Below are positions 1 to 33,596 of a stretch of 64,000 nt of DNA, piece after piece. The stretch covers positions 124,001 to 188,000 of the forward strand of contig NZ_FOMS01000001.1 in assembly GCF_900112685.1 (NCBI RefSeq), given 5' to 3'. A program made the translations under genes and the position numbers. The DNA is from Roseivivax sediminis. GTDB lineage: Bacteria; Pseudomonadota; Alphaproteobacteria; Rhodobacterales; Rhodobacteraceae. The first letter of the stretch is position 1; each line of letters starts with the position of its first letter. The notes under the pieces were generated by a model, which was not told where the DNA came from, did no database searches, and saw only the letters and a program-made list of their open reading frames with translations.

Positions 1-452
1 AGCCGGGATCGTCGATCATGCCGGGCAAGGTGAACCCGACGCAGGCCGAGGCGCTGACCATGGTCTGCGCGCATGTCATGGGCAACGACGCGGCGGTGGG
101 CTTCGCCGGCAGCCAGGGGCATTTCGAGCTCAACGTCTACAACCCGATGATGAGCTACAACGTGCTGCAATCCATGCAGCTTCTGGGCGATTCGGCGTCG
201 GCCTTCACCGACAACATGGTCGTCGGGATCGAGGCGAACGAGACCCGCATCGAGAAGCTGATGACCGAATCGCTGATGCTGGTCACCGCGCTGGCGCCGA
301 CGATCGGCTACGACAACGCCACCAAGGTCGCCAAGACCGCGCACAAGAACGGCACCACCCTGCGCGAAGAGGCGGTCAACCTCGGCTTTGTCGACGAGGA
401 AACCTTCGACCGTGTCGTCCGCCCGGAGGACATGATCGGCCCGAAAAGCTGA
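1..452 (+). CDS. fumC: Fumarate hydratase class II, C-terminal part (partial)
   Basis: The reading frame is open from the window edge (first full codon at base 3) to the TGA at 450-452, so about 149 C-terminal residues of a roughly 460-aa enzyme are present. The visible part opens with the fumarase/aspartase signature [11 protein letters not shown]. It continues with the helical bundle of class II fumarases and the usual C-terminal domain ending near [12 protein letters not shown]. Class II fumarase interconverts fumarate and malate in the TCA cycle as a cytoplasmic homotetramer. The signature and the tail fit FumC better than aspartase or argininosuccinate lyase. The small DUF4169 and ribbon-helix-helix genes follow on the same strand. 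Confidence 0.95.
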
Positions 453-520
453 GGCACCACCGGCGCGGCGCCCCCCAATGGAGGTCTTGGGCGGCCGCCG
501 CGCCGTGCTATACATGCTCC

Positions 521-697
521 ATGTCGAACACGGTCAATCTCAACCGCTATCGGAAGGACAAGGCCCGCGCCGAGAAGCGCGCCAAGGGCGATGAGAACGC
601 GGTGAAGTTCGGCCGCTCCAAGGGCCGGAAGGCGCAGGAGCGGGCCGAGGCCGACAAGGCGCGGCGCGATCTCGACGGGCACAAGGGCGAGTCGTGA
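521..697 (+). CDS. DUF4169 family small basic protein
   Basis: This 58-aa protein begins MSNTVNLNRYRKDKARAEKR and is rich in Lys, Arg, Glu and Ala. It probably forms one long charged helix or coiled coil, with no signal peptide or membrane segment. The opening VNLNRYRK, the NAVKFGRSK segment and the ending RRDLDGHKGE match my recollection of DUF4169, a family of unknown function common beside fumC in Rhodobacterales. Its TGA (695-697) overlaps the GTG start of the next gene at 694, which suggests translational coupling. The function is unknown; RNA or nucleoid binding is only a guess from the charge pattern. Confidence 0.8.
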   Translation: MSNTVNLNRYRKDKARAEKRAKGDENAVKFGRSKGRKAQERAEADKARRDLDGHKGES

Positions 698-939
698 GCG
701 GCCCGCCGGTCAAGCGCTCGCTCACGCTGCGCGGCCACCGCACCAGCGTCTCGCTCGAAGCACCGTTCTGGGACGCCTTTCGCCGCATAGCCGAAGCCGA
801 CGGCAAGGCCGTGAACGCGCTCGCGGCCGAGATCGACGCCGAACGCGAGGTTTCGACAGGGCTTGCCTCCGCGATCCGCGTCTACGTGCTGGAACGCACG
901 CAGCGCGGCATCGCCGAGGGTCAGCGTTCCAGGTCGTAG
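694..939 (+). CDS. Ribbon-helix-helix domain protein
   Basis: This 81-aa protein starts with GTG at 694, overlapping the stop of the DUF4169 gene. The segment VKRSLTLRGHRTSVSLEAPFW (about residues 6-26) looks like the beta strand and first helix of a ribbon-helix-helix fold (RHH_4 type). It is followed by an Ala/Glu-rich helix and a helix around LASAIRVYVLE. Proteins of this type are short and bind DNA as dimers. The fumC-DUF4169-RHH order suggests one transcription unit, but the target is unknown. Its last 19 nt overlap the end of the convergent SIMPL gene. Confidence 0.75.
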   Translation: MSGPPVKRSLTLRGHRTSVSLEAPFWDAFRRIAEADGKAVNALAAEIDAEREVSTGLASAIRVYVLERTQRGIAEGQRSRS

Positions 940-1774: not shown

Positions 1775-4594
1775 ATGACAACCGATTTCGCGCTGAACCT
1801 GTCGTCCTCGGGCATCTCGCTCCTGCGCCGGGCGGACCGTGGCTGGCGTGTCGCCGGCGAGGCACAGCTGGACGGCGACCTCGATGCGGAGATGCGCGCG
1901 CTTCGGGCGATGACCGATGACGGCGCCGCCGTGAAGCTCGTCCTCCCGGAGGACCAGATCAAGTTCCTCAGCCTCGAGGATCCCGGGACCCCCAGTGGCC
2001 GGGCCGAGGCCGCGCGCGCTGTGCTGGACGGCGCGACCCCCTATCCGATCGACGAGCTCTCGCACGACTACGCAGTCAAGAAGGGGCGGCTCTTCGTCGC
2101 CGCGGTGGCCCGCGAGACGCTGGAAGAGGCCGAGCAGTTCGCTCTTGCACAGGGCTTCCGCCCGGTCTGCTTCGTCGGCCTGCCGATGCCACGCAAGTTC
2201 AACGGCGAGATCTTCTTCGGCGCCTGCGACAGCTGGGACGGCGAGGCCCCCTCCCGCGAGACGCCGCCGATCCGCGTGATGACGGACGAGGAGGCGCAGG
2301 CCATGGCCGCCCGCGCTGCCAAGGAGGCCGCCCGCAAGGCGACCCCGGCCCCGGCGGCGCAGCCACAAACGGCAGAGGCAAGCCCGGCCCCCGCGCCCGC
2401 AGACGTTCAGGCGTCCCGCGTCCCCGAGCCGGCCACGGCCGAGCCGCCGTCCGCTACGGCCACCCGCCGGGCGGCCCCTGCCCCGACACCGCCACCGGCC
2501 GAGCCGGCCCCCGCAGCGCAGGCGCGAAAGACCGCACAGGCGCAACCGGCCCCGTCCGCCCCTGCCGCGCCCCAGGTACAGACCACGCCGGAAACCCCGG
2601 CACGCGAGACCCCCGCACCGCCCCCGGAGCCGGAGCACACCGTGCGTCCTCTCCCGGCCGAGCCCGCGCCCGATCCGGACACGTCGCCAGCCCGGACGCC
2701 GCAGGCTCCCGAGGTCCCCTCGCCGAATACGGCGGCGTCAGAACCCGCCCCGGTGCCGACATTCTCGAGCATCCGGGCGCGGCGCGACGTGCCGCCGCCC
2801 ACCGCCGCGCCGCGCGTGGACGGGCCTGAAGGGCCTGCGGACGGGTCCGATGCCGGCCCGCTCAACCGACCCGTGCCCAGGCGGCCCAATCCGGACGAGG
2901 TGCAGGCGCGGTTGCGCACCATCGCCGCCACTGCACCATCGAAAAGCGATGTGCCGCCCCCGCCCGCCCAGGCGCCGGCCGCCGGCCGCGGCGCACGCGG
3001 TATTCTCGGCCGGCTGAAGCCGGGACAGGAGGAGGCCGCCGGCCCGGCGGCGGCACAGCCTTCAACGCCGCACACAACACCGAAGGTCGCGACCCAGCCG
3101 AAGCCGGCAGTTTCGATGGAGAAGCCGCCCGCCGCCGTTGCGCCGGAGGCCCCGAGCGCACCCGAAAGGATCGCGGCGCTACGGCCCGGGCGGGAGCCGC
3201 CGACAACGCGCGCTCCGGCGCAGGACAATGCCGGCGGCGGCGCCGCCGTGCTGACGGCCGGCACCGATGACGAAGCACAGCGCATGACCATCTTCGGCGC
3301 CCGCCAACGCGCCGAGCAGGAGCGCATCGGCGGCAAGCCCCGGTATCTCGGCCTGCTGCTGACCGTCGTCCTGCTGATCTTCCTCGCCGGGGTGGCGGCT
3401 TGGGCGTCCGTTTTCCTCGAGGATGGGCTCGCGCGCTTCTTCCGCAGCGACTCGGACGAAGCCCAGGTCGCGCAATTGCCCGACCCCGCCGCCACAGAGA
3501 CGTCCGCGTCCGGCACCGGGTCCGGCCCTGACGCGCAACCGCAGGAATCCCCGGACACCAGGGTTGCCGCACTCGAACCCGGCACGGCGGCAGAGCCGCC
3601 AGACGCAGAGACGCCCGCGGCCCTGTCCGAACCCGAGACGGCGCGCGCGCTCGATCCGGCGGAGGCCGAGGCGACCTATGCCGCGACCGGCATCTGGCAG
3701 CGCGCACCGACCGCGCCACTGGCGCTTTCACCGGGACAGGAAGGCGTCGGCGATCCCTACATGCTGTCGCTCGATGCCGGGGTCGAGGCGCATGACGCGG
3801 TCGCGCTGCCAGAGGCGGAGGCCGGCTACAACGATACGCCCTTCGACGCGCCGATGCCGCCGGCGCCGGCCGACACGGTCTTCGACCTCGACGAACGCGG
3901 CTTTGTCGTCGCTACGCCCGAAGGCGCACTCAATCCGGATCGCATCCGCGTCTTTGCCGGCATGCCGCCGGTGGTGCCGCCCAGCCGCAGCAGCGTTCTG
4001 CCCGGCGGCCAGGACGCCCCGGCGACGGCCGCCGAGGCCGAGGCGCTGAAACGGCTGAACAGCGTGCGCCCGCGGTCCCGCCCGGTCACGCTGGTGGAGG
4101 ACAACGAGCGTGCCGCACTCGGCGGCGTGTCGCTCGGTGAACTGGCCGCGCTGCGCCCCAATGTCCGCCCGGAATCCGCGAAGGCCGAGGCCGAGACCGA
4201 CACGGCCGCGACCGACCAGGCGGTGGCCGAATCGCGCGCGCCCATCGCCCGCCCGCGCAACTTCGCCAGCATCGTCGAGCAGGCCCGCGAACGCCAGGAG
4301 CAGCAGCCGCAGCAAGTCGCCGCGGCGCCGCGCACCGTGGAGCCGAGCGCCCCATCGAGTGCCTCGGTCACCCAGCAGGCCACGGTGCGCAACGCGCTGA
4401 ACCTGCGGCGGGTCAACCTGATCGGCGTCTACGGTCAGCCCTCGAACCGCAGGGCGCTCGTGCGCCTGTCGAACGGGCGCTACCAGAAGGTGCAGGTCGG
4501 CGATCGCATCGACGGCGGCCGCGTCGCCGCCATCGGCGAAAGCGAGCTGCGATACGTCAAGGGCGGCCGCAACGTGACGCTGGAGATGCCGTAG
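1775..4594 (+). CDS. Large Pro/Ala-rich membrane protein with PilM/GspL-like N-terminus and PilP/GspC-like C-terminus
   Basis: This is a 939-aa protein with four visible parts. Residues 1-150 resemble the actin-like cytoplasmic domain of PilM/GspL proteins: FALNLSSSGISLLRR, then VKLVLPEDQIKFLSLE, then VAAVARETLEEAEQFALAQGF. Residues about 170-520 are a low-complexity Pro/Ala/Glu linker. Residues about 523-549 (YLGLLLTVVLLIFLAGVAAWASVFL) form one transmembrane helix. After a second disordered stretch, residues about 873-939 (VNLIGVYGQPSNRRALVRLSNGRY, then VGDRIDGGRVAAIGE) resemble the beta domain of PilP/GspC. The topology is cytoplasmic N-terminus, one helix, periplasmic C-terminus. No other pilus or type II secretion gene is nearby. 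Automated annotation may mislabel the Pro/Ala-rich part as a translation factor. The domain matches are by eye. Confidence 0.6.
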   Translation: MTTDFALNLSSSGISLLRRADRGWRVAGEAQLDGDLDAEMRALRAMTDDGAAVKLVLPEDQIKFLSLEDPGTPSGRAEAARAVLDGATPYPIDELSHDYAVKKGRLFVAAVARETLEEAEQFALAQGFRPVCFVGLPMPRKFNGEIFFGACDSWDGEAPSRETPPIRVMTDEEAQAMAARAAKEAARKATPAPAAQPQTAEASPAPAPADVQASRVPEPATAEPPSATATRRAAPAPTPPPAEPAPAAQARKTAQAQPAPSAPAAPQVQTTPETPARETPAPPPEPEHTVRPLPAEPAPDPDTSPARTPQAPEVPSPNTAASEPAPVPTFSSIRARRDVPPPTAAPRVDGPEGPADGSDAGPLNRPVPRRPNPDEVQARLRTIAATAPSKSDVPPPPAQAPAAGRGARGILGRLKPGQEEAAGPAAAQPSTPHTTPKVATQPKPAVSMEKPPAAVAPEAPSAPERIAALRPGREPPTTRAPAQDNAGGGAAVLTAGTDDEAQRMTIFGARQRAEQERIGGKPRYLGLLLTVVLLIFLAGVAAWASVFLEDGLARFFRSDSDEAQVAQLPDPAATETSASGTGSGPDAQPQESPDTRVAALEPGTAAEPPDAETPAALSEPETARALDPAEAEATYAATGIWQRAPTAPLALSPGQEGVGDPYMLSLDAGVEAHDAVALPEAEAGYNDTPFDAPMPPAPADTVFDLDERGFVVATPEGALNPDRIRVFAGMPPVVPPSRSSVLPGGQDAPATAAEAEALKRLNSVRPRSRPVTLVEDNERAALGGVSLGELAALRPNVRPESAKAEAETDTAATDQAVAESRAPIARPRNFASIVEQARERQEQQPQQVAAAPRTVEPSAPSSASVTQQATVRNALNLRRVNLIGVYGQPSNRRALVRLSNGRYQKVQVGDRIDGGRVAAIGESELRYVKGGRNVTLEMP

Positions 4595-32267: not shown

Positions 32268-32854
32268 CCCGTGTCCATACCGCGTATCTGCGCCGTTTCG
32301 CGCGCAACGAAGACGGCGCCGTGCAAACCGTTCCCTACGTTCTGTGGATCCTGATCTTCATCGTCTTCATCCTCGGCGGCGTCGAAATGGGCATGTACAC
32401 CGCCCGGCAGACGATGCTCGAGCACGGGCTCGACAAGACGATCCGGCGCGTGCGGCTCGGCACCGGCACGATCTACGATCGCGAGACGCTGAAAGAGATG
32501 ATCTGCGACAACTCCGTCATCCTGCCGTATTGCGAGGACGAACTCTACCTGGAGATGGTCAAGCTCGACATCCGCGACTGGCAACTGCCGCCCCAGAACG
32601 TGAAGTGCTACGACGACACGGTCGACGCCACGGGATCCGGATCGGACGGCTACGGCGGTTCCGACGACGAGGTCCAACCGCAGGTCGCCTTCGAATACGG
32701 CCGCGAAAACGAACTGATGATGCTGCGCGCCTGCTTCCGGTTCGAGCCGATCACGCCGACGCTCGGCCTCGGCAAGTACCTGGCCAGCTACTACGAGGAT
32801 GACGGCCATGCCCGGATGAATGCCGTCGGCGCCTTTGTCCACGAACCGCTCTGA
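32264..32854 (+). CDS. TadE/TadF-like membrane protein
   Basis: This 196-aa protein overlaps the TadG-like gene by 4 nt (ATGA). It has a charged N-terminus with ARNEDGAVQT, then a single transmembrane helix (YVLWILIFIVFILGGVEMGMYTA, about 25-47) and a periplasmic domain with several Cys (ICDNSVILPYCEDE, CYDDTVDA, RACFRFEP). The DEDG-helix layout is that of TadE/F minor pseudopilins, though the canonical Glu-5 of the processed form is not obvious. It probably acts with its two neighbours. Confidence 0.75.
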   Translation: MTRVHTAYLRRFARNEDGAVQTVPYVLWILIFIVFILGGVEMGMYTARQTMLEHGLDKTIRRVRLGTGTIYDRETLKEMICDNSVILPYCEDELYLEMVKLDIRDWQLPPQNVKCYDDTVDATGSGSDGYGGSDDEVQPQVAFEYGRENELMMLRACFRFEPITPTLGLGKYLASYYEDDGHARMNAVGAFVHEPL

Positions 32855-32867
32855 GGAGGATCGGCGC

Positions 32868-33596
32868 ATGTTCGATGCAATCAAGTCCCGCGCGCACCGC
32901 TTCCTCGGCCAAGAGGACGGCGATGCGACGGTCGAAGGTCTGCTGCTGATCCCGGTGGTCGCCACGCTCTTCGCAGCCGGCTGGGTCTGGCACGATTTCG
33001 GCCGCCAGACGGCGCTGGAGCAGCGGATCAATTACACCGTCGGCGACATGATGTCCCGCGAGACCGACCCGATAGACGACGCCTATATCGATCACACCTT
33101 CGAGCTTGTCCTGGCGATGCTGAAGAGCAATCTGGACAAGACCGACCTGCGCATCAGCGTCGTCCGTCAGACGAAGAAGATCGACCGGCAGGATCCCGAG
33201 TACCGGGTCGTCTGGTCCGAGACCCGCGGCGACCGGGCGGTGCTCTCGGGCACGCTGACGGATTGGGACGACAGGCTGCCGCTGATGGCGCGCAACGATC
33301 AGGTGATCGTCGTCGAGACATGGACGGACCACCAGCCGGTCTTCACCATCGCCGGTCTGGGAGCGTCCGAGATCACATCCTATTCCTTCACCCGCCCGCG
33401 CTTTGCTCCGCAGGTGCTGTTCGACGACGGCGGCGGCGGATCCCACGCCAACAATGGCTGGGGCAACGGCGACCAGGACGCGCCCGGAAACTCGCTGTGC
33501 AACAACAACGCCGAGAACTACGACGAGGGTCAGAACTCCAACAAGTGCAGGGACAACGTCGACGGCAGCGAAAACATCGAGCCGAGCGGGGTGTGA
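32868..33596 (+). CDS. TadE-like membrane protein with Asn/Gly/Asp-rich tail
   Basis: This 242-aa protein starts at ATG 32868 after GAGGAGG, which overlaps the previous stop. Its N-terminal part (FLGQEDGDATVEGLLLIPVVATLFAAGWVW) resembles a TadE prepilin helix with a Glu after the Gly. A compact domain up to about residue 190 is followed by a low-complexity tail rich in Gly, Asn, Asp and Ser with two Cys (SLCNNNAE, KCRDNVDG). It is the last gene of the three-gene Tad-like cassette. The processing site and partners are inferred. Confidence 0.75.
   Translation: MFDAIKSRAHRFLGQEDGDATVEGLLLIPVVATLFAAGWVWHDFGRQTALEQRINYTVGDMMSRETDPIDDAYIDHTFELVLAMLKSNLDKTDLRISVVRQTKKIDRQDPEYRVVWSETRGDRAVLSGTLTDWDDRLPLMARNDQVIVVETWTDHQPVFTIAGLGASEITSYSFTRPRFAPQVLFDDGGGGSHANNGWGNGDQDAPGNSLCNNNAENYDEGQNSNKCRDNVDGSENIEPSGV

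Follow-up and report, generated by a model that had tools for sequence, protein, structure and literature searches.

In the type IV pilus, the tail of PilN binds the IA-IC cleft of PilM, and the tail of FtsN likewise binds that of FtsA (PMC7613929). On the periplasmic side, the HR domain of GspC, a component of the type II secretion system (T2SS), docks onto the secretin's N0 domain (PMC3169554). PilM, PilN, and PilO have been redeployed outside the pilus in the flagella of Campylobacterota, where FcpM, FcpN, and FcpO form a cage (PMC11870540, a preprint). Fusions of platform proteins are also mentioned, namely PilM-PilN in pilus clusters (PMC11870540) and PilO-PilP (PMC3169554). The subject here is a gene that places a PilM/GspL-type domain and a PilP/GspC-type domain on one chain. 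It lies in a 64,000-nucleotide stretch of the alphaproteobacterium Roseivivax sediminis (contig NZ_FOMS01000001.1, positions 124,001 to 188,000), referred to below as the window.

The fusion protein may be a single-chain platform element of the type IV filament kind, whose two docking domains serve as a secretin-independent envelope scaffold; we give this reading a probability of about 0.55. The two folds, the predicted topology, and the one-chain architecture are established by computation, as are conservation throughout the Rhodobacteraceae and the persistence of the fusion where no secretin, and mostly no T2SSE ATPase, was detected. No description of a PilM/GspL-to-PilP/GspC fusion was found in open-licence papers. 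The parts themselves are known; new, as far as could be seen, are the way they are combined, the wide occurrence of the combination, and its lack of dependence on a secretin. We found no earlier account of this envelope protein, which is close to universal in a large bacterial family, and it raises the testable question of what docking domains of the PilM/PilP type contribute where there is no secretin. If the reading is true, a single chain can be what is left of the inner-membrane platform of type IV filaments once it is recruited to a different envelope task, a case to set beside the flagellar cage of Campylobacterota.

The best structural neighbours of the N-terminal domain (N-domain) are PilM and GspL, with which it shares fold and cytoplasmic side. 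Unlike them, it is only about 150 residues long, is joined through a transmembrane helix to a PilP-like domain, and is often kept where no T2SSE-type ATPase is found. The C-terminal domain (C-domain) has the fold of the PilP/GspC HR domain and, like it, ends a periplasmic chain after a long flexible arm. However, it is fused to the N-domain and conserved where no secretin is found. The Fcp cage resembles the fusion in using type IV pilus platform proteins outside a pilus, but it is described, in the available part of its source, as three separate genes tied to flagella, whereas the fusion is one chain that includes the PilP end and belongs to another lineage. The PilM-PilN and PilO-PilP fusions likewise carry platform proteins on one chain; the available text on them describes type IV pilus parts and no joining of PilM/GspL to PilP/GspC.

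Domain architecture of the fusion protein

The gene is an open reading frame (ORF) with an ATG start that encodes 939 residues. Codons were compared between the window and 12 of the 80 relative loci that were fetched. Over the last 83 codons, which cover the C-domain, 460 codon pairs are identical; those that differ are synonymous in 341 cases and non-synonymous in 195. The +1-frame control, on nine of the same 12 relatives, gives 334, 39, and 365, respectively. The synonymous excess in the true frame indicates a real gene with purifying selection on the C-domain, and this codon constraint rules out a chance ORF of a GC-rich genome.

AlphaFold2 models residues 1-160, on an alignment of 69 sequences, with a pLDDT of 92.6 and a pTM of 0.87. 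In a Foldseek search of the Protein Data Bank (PDB), GspL (1yf5, 7.1e-9) and PilM (5eoy, 3.9e-8) rank first, and FtsA follows at 1.4e-4. VIA aligns the domain with GspL (4pht) at Z 11.0 over 147 residues and 4.0 Å and with PilM (5eou) at Z 10.2 over 148 residues and 3.5 Å. Lower scores are obtained for FtsA (Z 8.0) and Hsp70-type folds (Z 6.8). The model and its matches uphold the PilM/GspL identity that the original prediction had assigned by eye, with the N-domain modelled as an actin-like (ASKHA) cytoplasmic domain of this type. Its likeness to PilM is probably confined in the main to the first lobe. Of the six PilM rows in VIA, four do not extend past residue 207 in a chain of about 350, while two reach 354 and 366, these ranges giving only the first and last matched residue; for this reason, loss of the second, nucleotide-binding lobe is likely but not proven.

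Sequence families add little for this domain. The window protein has no Pfam match to PilM_2 or T2SSL at E-values up to 10, short of the family cut-offs, and the PilN and PilO domains did not score in the same scan. Among 23 N-domains compared with Pfam, T2SSL matches two (best 0.0034) and PilM_2 one (0.082). A profile of the domain retrieved only unrelated chains from the PDB sequences.

The C-domain was modelled within residues 630-939 on an alignment of 60 sequences, from which nine of the 68 available relatives, among the longer ones, were excluded. The mean pLDDT is 75.9, and the C-terminal six-strand beta domain averages above 90. VIA matches it to GspC-HR (3oss) at Z 10.5 over 60 residues and 1.5 Å and to PilP (2y4y) at Z 9.1. 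Unrelated folds begin only at Z 4.8, below eleven rows of GspC, PilP, GspB, and Dot/Icm entries. Foldseek also places PilP and GspC on top (2.7e-4 and 1.8e-3), with a single match below 0.001. These comparisons bear out the PilP/GspC identity that had likewise been proposed by eye; the modelled domain is the HR beta domain of PilP/GspC, and its fold alone does not distinguish PilP from GspC. Structural matches to both expected kinds of fold were thus found.

Pfam PilP is the commonest family match of the C-domain; with a loose E-value, all 24 members examined hit it, the best at 9.4e-5. The window protein itself stays under the curated cut-offs, with about 13.8-16.6 of the 25.6 bits needed for PF04351, 27.8 of 34.65 bits for TIGR03021 (4.2e-6), and 18.1 of 150 bits for GspC_delta. 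A phmmer search of the PDB with the fusion returned nothing, and the C-domain profile returned one weak true GspC (7oio, E 0.54) beneath ribosomal L2 noise. Since direct sequence searches of the PDB gave no significant link, the case for the domains rests on their folds.

The segments between the domains were followed in a full-length alignment of 71 sequences, which comprises the window and 70 of the 80 fetched loci; seven loci cut at a contig end and three without the start motif were left out. The length of the fusion is very variable among these relatives. Proline and alanine make up 43% of residues 151-520, and the cytoplasmic linker is poorly conserved except for short F-x-S-R/I-R-type motifs. 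The pattern MT[IVL]FGAR occurs in 50 of the 71 sequences. Hydropathy indicates one transmembrane segment with its core from residue 524, and a hydrophobic helix is also present in full-length relatives. The order of N-domain, linker, single helix, and C-terminal beta domain in the original prediction is confirmed by the ORF, hydropathy, and models, and its estimates (a linker of about 350 residues, a helix at 523-549, and a beta domain of about 66 residues) lie close to the limits in Table 1.

What had been overlooked is a periplasmic stretch of about 310 residues, spanning about 549-875, whose islands are strongly conserved across the alignment. Its part within the model, residues 630-859, mostly adopts no compact fold. 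At least two copies of RPxxRP are found in 69 of 71 periplasmic parts, counted with a slightly looser pattern, vs. one of 71 cytoplasmic parts counted with the strict pattern.

Table 1. Position of the fusion gene and its predicted segments in the window.
Feature	Nucleotides	Residues	Strand	Evidence
Whole gene: PilM/GspL lobe I, linker, transmembrane helix, periplasmic linker, PilP/GspC-HR	1775..4594		+	ORF, codon constraint, family-wide relatives
N-terminal cytoplasmic domain, predicted to fold like the cytoplasmic domain of GspL and lobe I of PilM	1775..2221	1-149	+	AlphaFold2, Foldseek, VIA, alignment
Cytoplasmic Pro/Ala-rich linker	2222..3283	150-503	+	Composition, motif counts, column conservation over 71 sequences
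Juxtamembrane cytoplasmic motif MTIFGAR, candidate docking peptide	3284..3304	504-510	+	Pattern count
Predicted single transmembrane helix	3344..3412	524-546	+	Hydropathy
Periplasmic stretch with conserved islands YAATGIW, TPEGAL, RPxxRP repeats, RPRNF	3662..4351	630-859	+	Column conservation
Two RPxxRP motifs	4067..4171	765-770, 794-799	+	Motif count
C-terminal PilP/GspC-HR domain (modelled) with leading helix	4340..4591	856-939 (strands 881-937)	+	Model, VIA, Pfam, TIGR03021

Distribution and retention without a detected secretin

A first set of 41 genomes comprises 25 members of the family and 16 others. Among the members, the N-domain is found in 23 and the C-domain in all 25; neither was found in any of the others. 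Both domains lie in one open frame in 21 of the 25 members. The survey was extended to 199 genomes of the family, one per genus and at least 95% complete, of which 197 have the C-domain. The fusion is not a local oddity of the window. The two genomes without a C-domain are G050 and G155; the latter has a secretin and neither fusion domain. Nearly all named relatives are Rhodobacteraceae or roseobacters by record title, and the nearest is Roseivivax. A class-wide C-domain search of 289 genomes left 252 without a match; among the matches listed, five in family members are strong and 12 from other families are weak (1.6e-8 to 1.9e-4, in frames of 162-372 residues). The one of these 12 that was compared by coordinates, G028, has both of its matches within 2 kb of a secretin, so that the weak matches outside the family look like ordinary GspC/PilP.

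A secretin domain (PF00263) is found in 179 of the 199 family genomes, and the search detected none in the other 20. One of these, G063, is a single contig and 100% complete. The C-domain is present in 19 of the 20 (all but G050) and the N-domain in 18 (all but G101 and G157), so a partner secretin is not found in every genome with a C-domain. Seventeen of the loci were fetched, those of G101, G157, and G205 (N-domain in a 218-residue frame at a contig end) being the remainder. Sixteen of them carry the fusion in one frame. The seventeenth, in G050 (L202), has an N-domain frame with a hydrophobic helix, without C-domain or secretin. A transmembrane segment exceeds the hydropathy threshold in 14 of the 16 fusions (not L194 or L198), and MTIFGAR was not seen adjoining it in several divergent members. 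At least one neighbour known from the window (SIMPL, HPPD, Lrp, KefC, or CarD) accompanies 14 of the 16; L193 and L199 share none, L192 and L197 only CarD, and L189 only KefC.

The T2SSE ATPase exceeds its cut-off in two of the 20 genomes (G087 and G111), scores below it in two (G084 and G187), and gives no match in 16. Combining these tables yields 14 genomes in which the fusion lies in one frame, a secretin was not detected, and T2SSE does not exceed its cut-off. The original prediction had called the fusion an envelope-spanning device in its own right; this stays conditional, but the persistence of the fusion where no secretin was detected lends it support.

Proposed role and competing explanations

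As a secretin-independent scaffold, the fusion would present in the cytoplasm one lobe of a PilM/GspL-type actin-like domain whose second, nucleotide-binding lobe is apparently lost. The IA-IC cleft should persist, the site at which PilM and FtsA grip a bitopic membrane partner by its cytoplasmic tail. The N-domain may then act as a peptide clamp without nucleotide switching, its ligand being either a partner's tail or the protein's own MTIFGAR juxtamembrane segment, which is a candidate. The flexible linker and single helix would lead into a long arm in the periplasm that bears conserved peptide motifs. At the end of this arm, the PilP/GspC-HR domain could reach across the periplasm. At least in secretin-less genomes, this domain would have a partner other than a secretin. 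The whole might be a housekeeping scaffold that couples the inner membrane with periplasmic or outer-membrane processes. A broader version, about which we are slightly more doubtful than confident, is that nearly the whole family Rhodobacteraceae uses a secretin-free and ATPase-free one-protein trans-envelope scaffold as core housekeeping equipment. Parts of the PilM/PilP type, derived from the type IV filament platform, would then have been redeployed outside any pilus a second time and independently, here condensed into one chain in which lobe I does nothing but clamp peptides. The available part of an R. sphaeroides transposon-sequencing (essentiality) study yielded no matching gene (PMC5513736).

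Several observations weigh against a secretin-independent single-chain scaffold. The fusion is usual but not absolute, and one chain is not obligatory: among the 25 family genomes, G001 has its domains on different contigs, G016 and G023 have no N-domain match, and G022 has two overlapping frames. In G022 (L025:1408-2894; G022:C15), a stop closes the N-domain frame, which overlaps a second frame; this one contains the C-domain, an early ATG, and a hydrophobic segment with a mean hydropathy of 1.62. The locus reads for this reason as a two-gene form, and the export-like start fits a periplasmic C-domain; the 230-residue C-domain frame of G023 has a similar start. MTIFGAR is lacking in 21 of the 71 sequences. 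Secretin absence means absence of a Pfam match, and most such assemblies are drafts. C-domain scores are often weaker in secretin-less genomes (7e-23 in G105 and 2e-23 in G101), which suggests that constraint may be looser there, although not all are weak (8e-41 in G145 and 1.5e-40 in G084). Since nearly all genomes have the C-domain, its correlation with the secretin is statistically unworkable, and where a secretin is present, the fusion may contact it.

That last point leads to an accessory role in the Tad pilus (or T2SS), with the C-domain on secretin N0 and the N-domain on the ATPase or platform. GspC/PilP and GspL/PilM are known docking parts with the same two folds, secretins are common in the family, and R. 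sediminis has a T2SS as well as a secretin/ATPase locus on the same contig. We nevertheless consider this role unlikely. The C-domain and mostly the one-frame fusion are kept in secretin-less genomes, and no Tad or T2SS genes adjoin the fusion in the window. Next to Tad genes in general, homologues of PilMNOP are absent or very rare according to the available part of PMC6668835, and C-domain presence is not significantly associated with the secretin (Fisher p 0.19, of weak power with two genomes lacking the domain). Poorer still are the prospects of a divisome or elongasome clamp of the FtsA/FtsN type, in which the actin-like lobe would recruit the cytoskeleton and the periplasmic arm would act on wall synthesis. 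FtsA is among the next-best folds, near-universal conservation suits a core cell process, and type IVa pilus machinery is recruited to division sites (PMC5285504, in the part available). However, GspL and PilM match better than FtsA, neither SPOR nor another wall-binding domain scored in Pfam or NCBIfam, and the identified neighbours are not division genes.

We estimate it as very improbable that the protein is a relic of a lost T2SS or type IV pilus that does little, or an adaptor with two domains working independently of each other. The absence of a visible conserved operon partner and the variable length would fit this, as would the split frames of G022, the fact that G016 and G023 have a C-domain while no N-domain was detected, and a stand-alone C-domain paralogue near purF. 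This reading is opposed by purifying selection on the C-domain, by its near-complete retention in the family, and by the conserved periplasmic islands. A role in DNA uptake was dropped for lack of evidence, and a defence system was set aside after PADLOC gave no match for the fusion or its small C-domain paralogue. The secretin-independent scaffold is the reading that we prefer.

Neighbouring genes and the window's own genome

The fusion lies among SIMPL, HPPD, KefC, and CarD genes and not in a pilus or T2SS gene cluster. As had been predicted, no pilus or secretion genes were found nearby; 15 predicted ORFs from the genome's own T2SS and Tad-like loci gave no tblastn match in the window at 1e-3. 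Across the 80 fetched loci, many of them truncated, the neighbours are KefC-type (69), CarD (58), SIMPL (48), HPPD (42), and Lrp (37) genes. No operon partner of the fusion is apparent, and a scan for promoters and terminators found none. The SIMPL (DUF541) gene, at 921-1733 on the minus strand, is divergent from the fusion (PF04402, 188 bits).

In the T2SS locus of the same genome (L146), GspD and GspL exceed their cut-offs, while the GspC- and GspM-like genes fall short of theirs. By family search, GspL, GspC, and GspM are the same kinds of component as in the fusion, but they are separate genes. Since this T2SS has a GspL of its own, the fusion is not the genome's missing GspL. Profiles of the fusion domains gave no significant hhalign match to these GspL and GspC, a comparison of a profile with one sequence that is insensitive. 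About 60 kb beyond the window, the contig carries a locus with a 478-residue secretin and a T2SSE ATPase, which we read as Tad/Cpa from its gene order and lengths. Within the window, a 258-residue ORF (32820-33596, plus strand) has a start that reads like a TadE/TadG-type pseudopilin, with no Pfam match at E 0.1.

One relative, L131, is filed under the title Enemella evansiae and has a roseobacter-type locus, so that its title looks misassigned; we take this to be an actinobacterial name. The stand-alone C-domain paralogue of R. sediminis has 87 residues (L003:7936-8199; G000:C7) and no visible leader or transmembrane segment. It is flanked by purF on one side and, on the other, by a short-chain dehydrogenase gene that lies upstream of surE. 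Two C-domain matches occur in 63 of the 199 family genomes. The surroundings of the second match were examined by tblastn in eight loci, including that of R. sediminis, and contain the short-chain dehydrogenase and surE in all eight and purF in seven.

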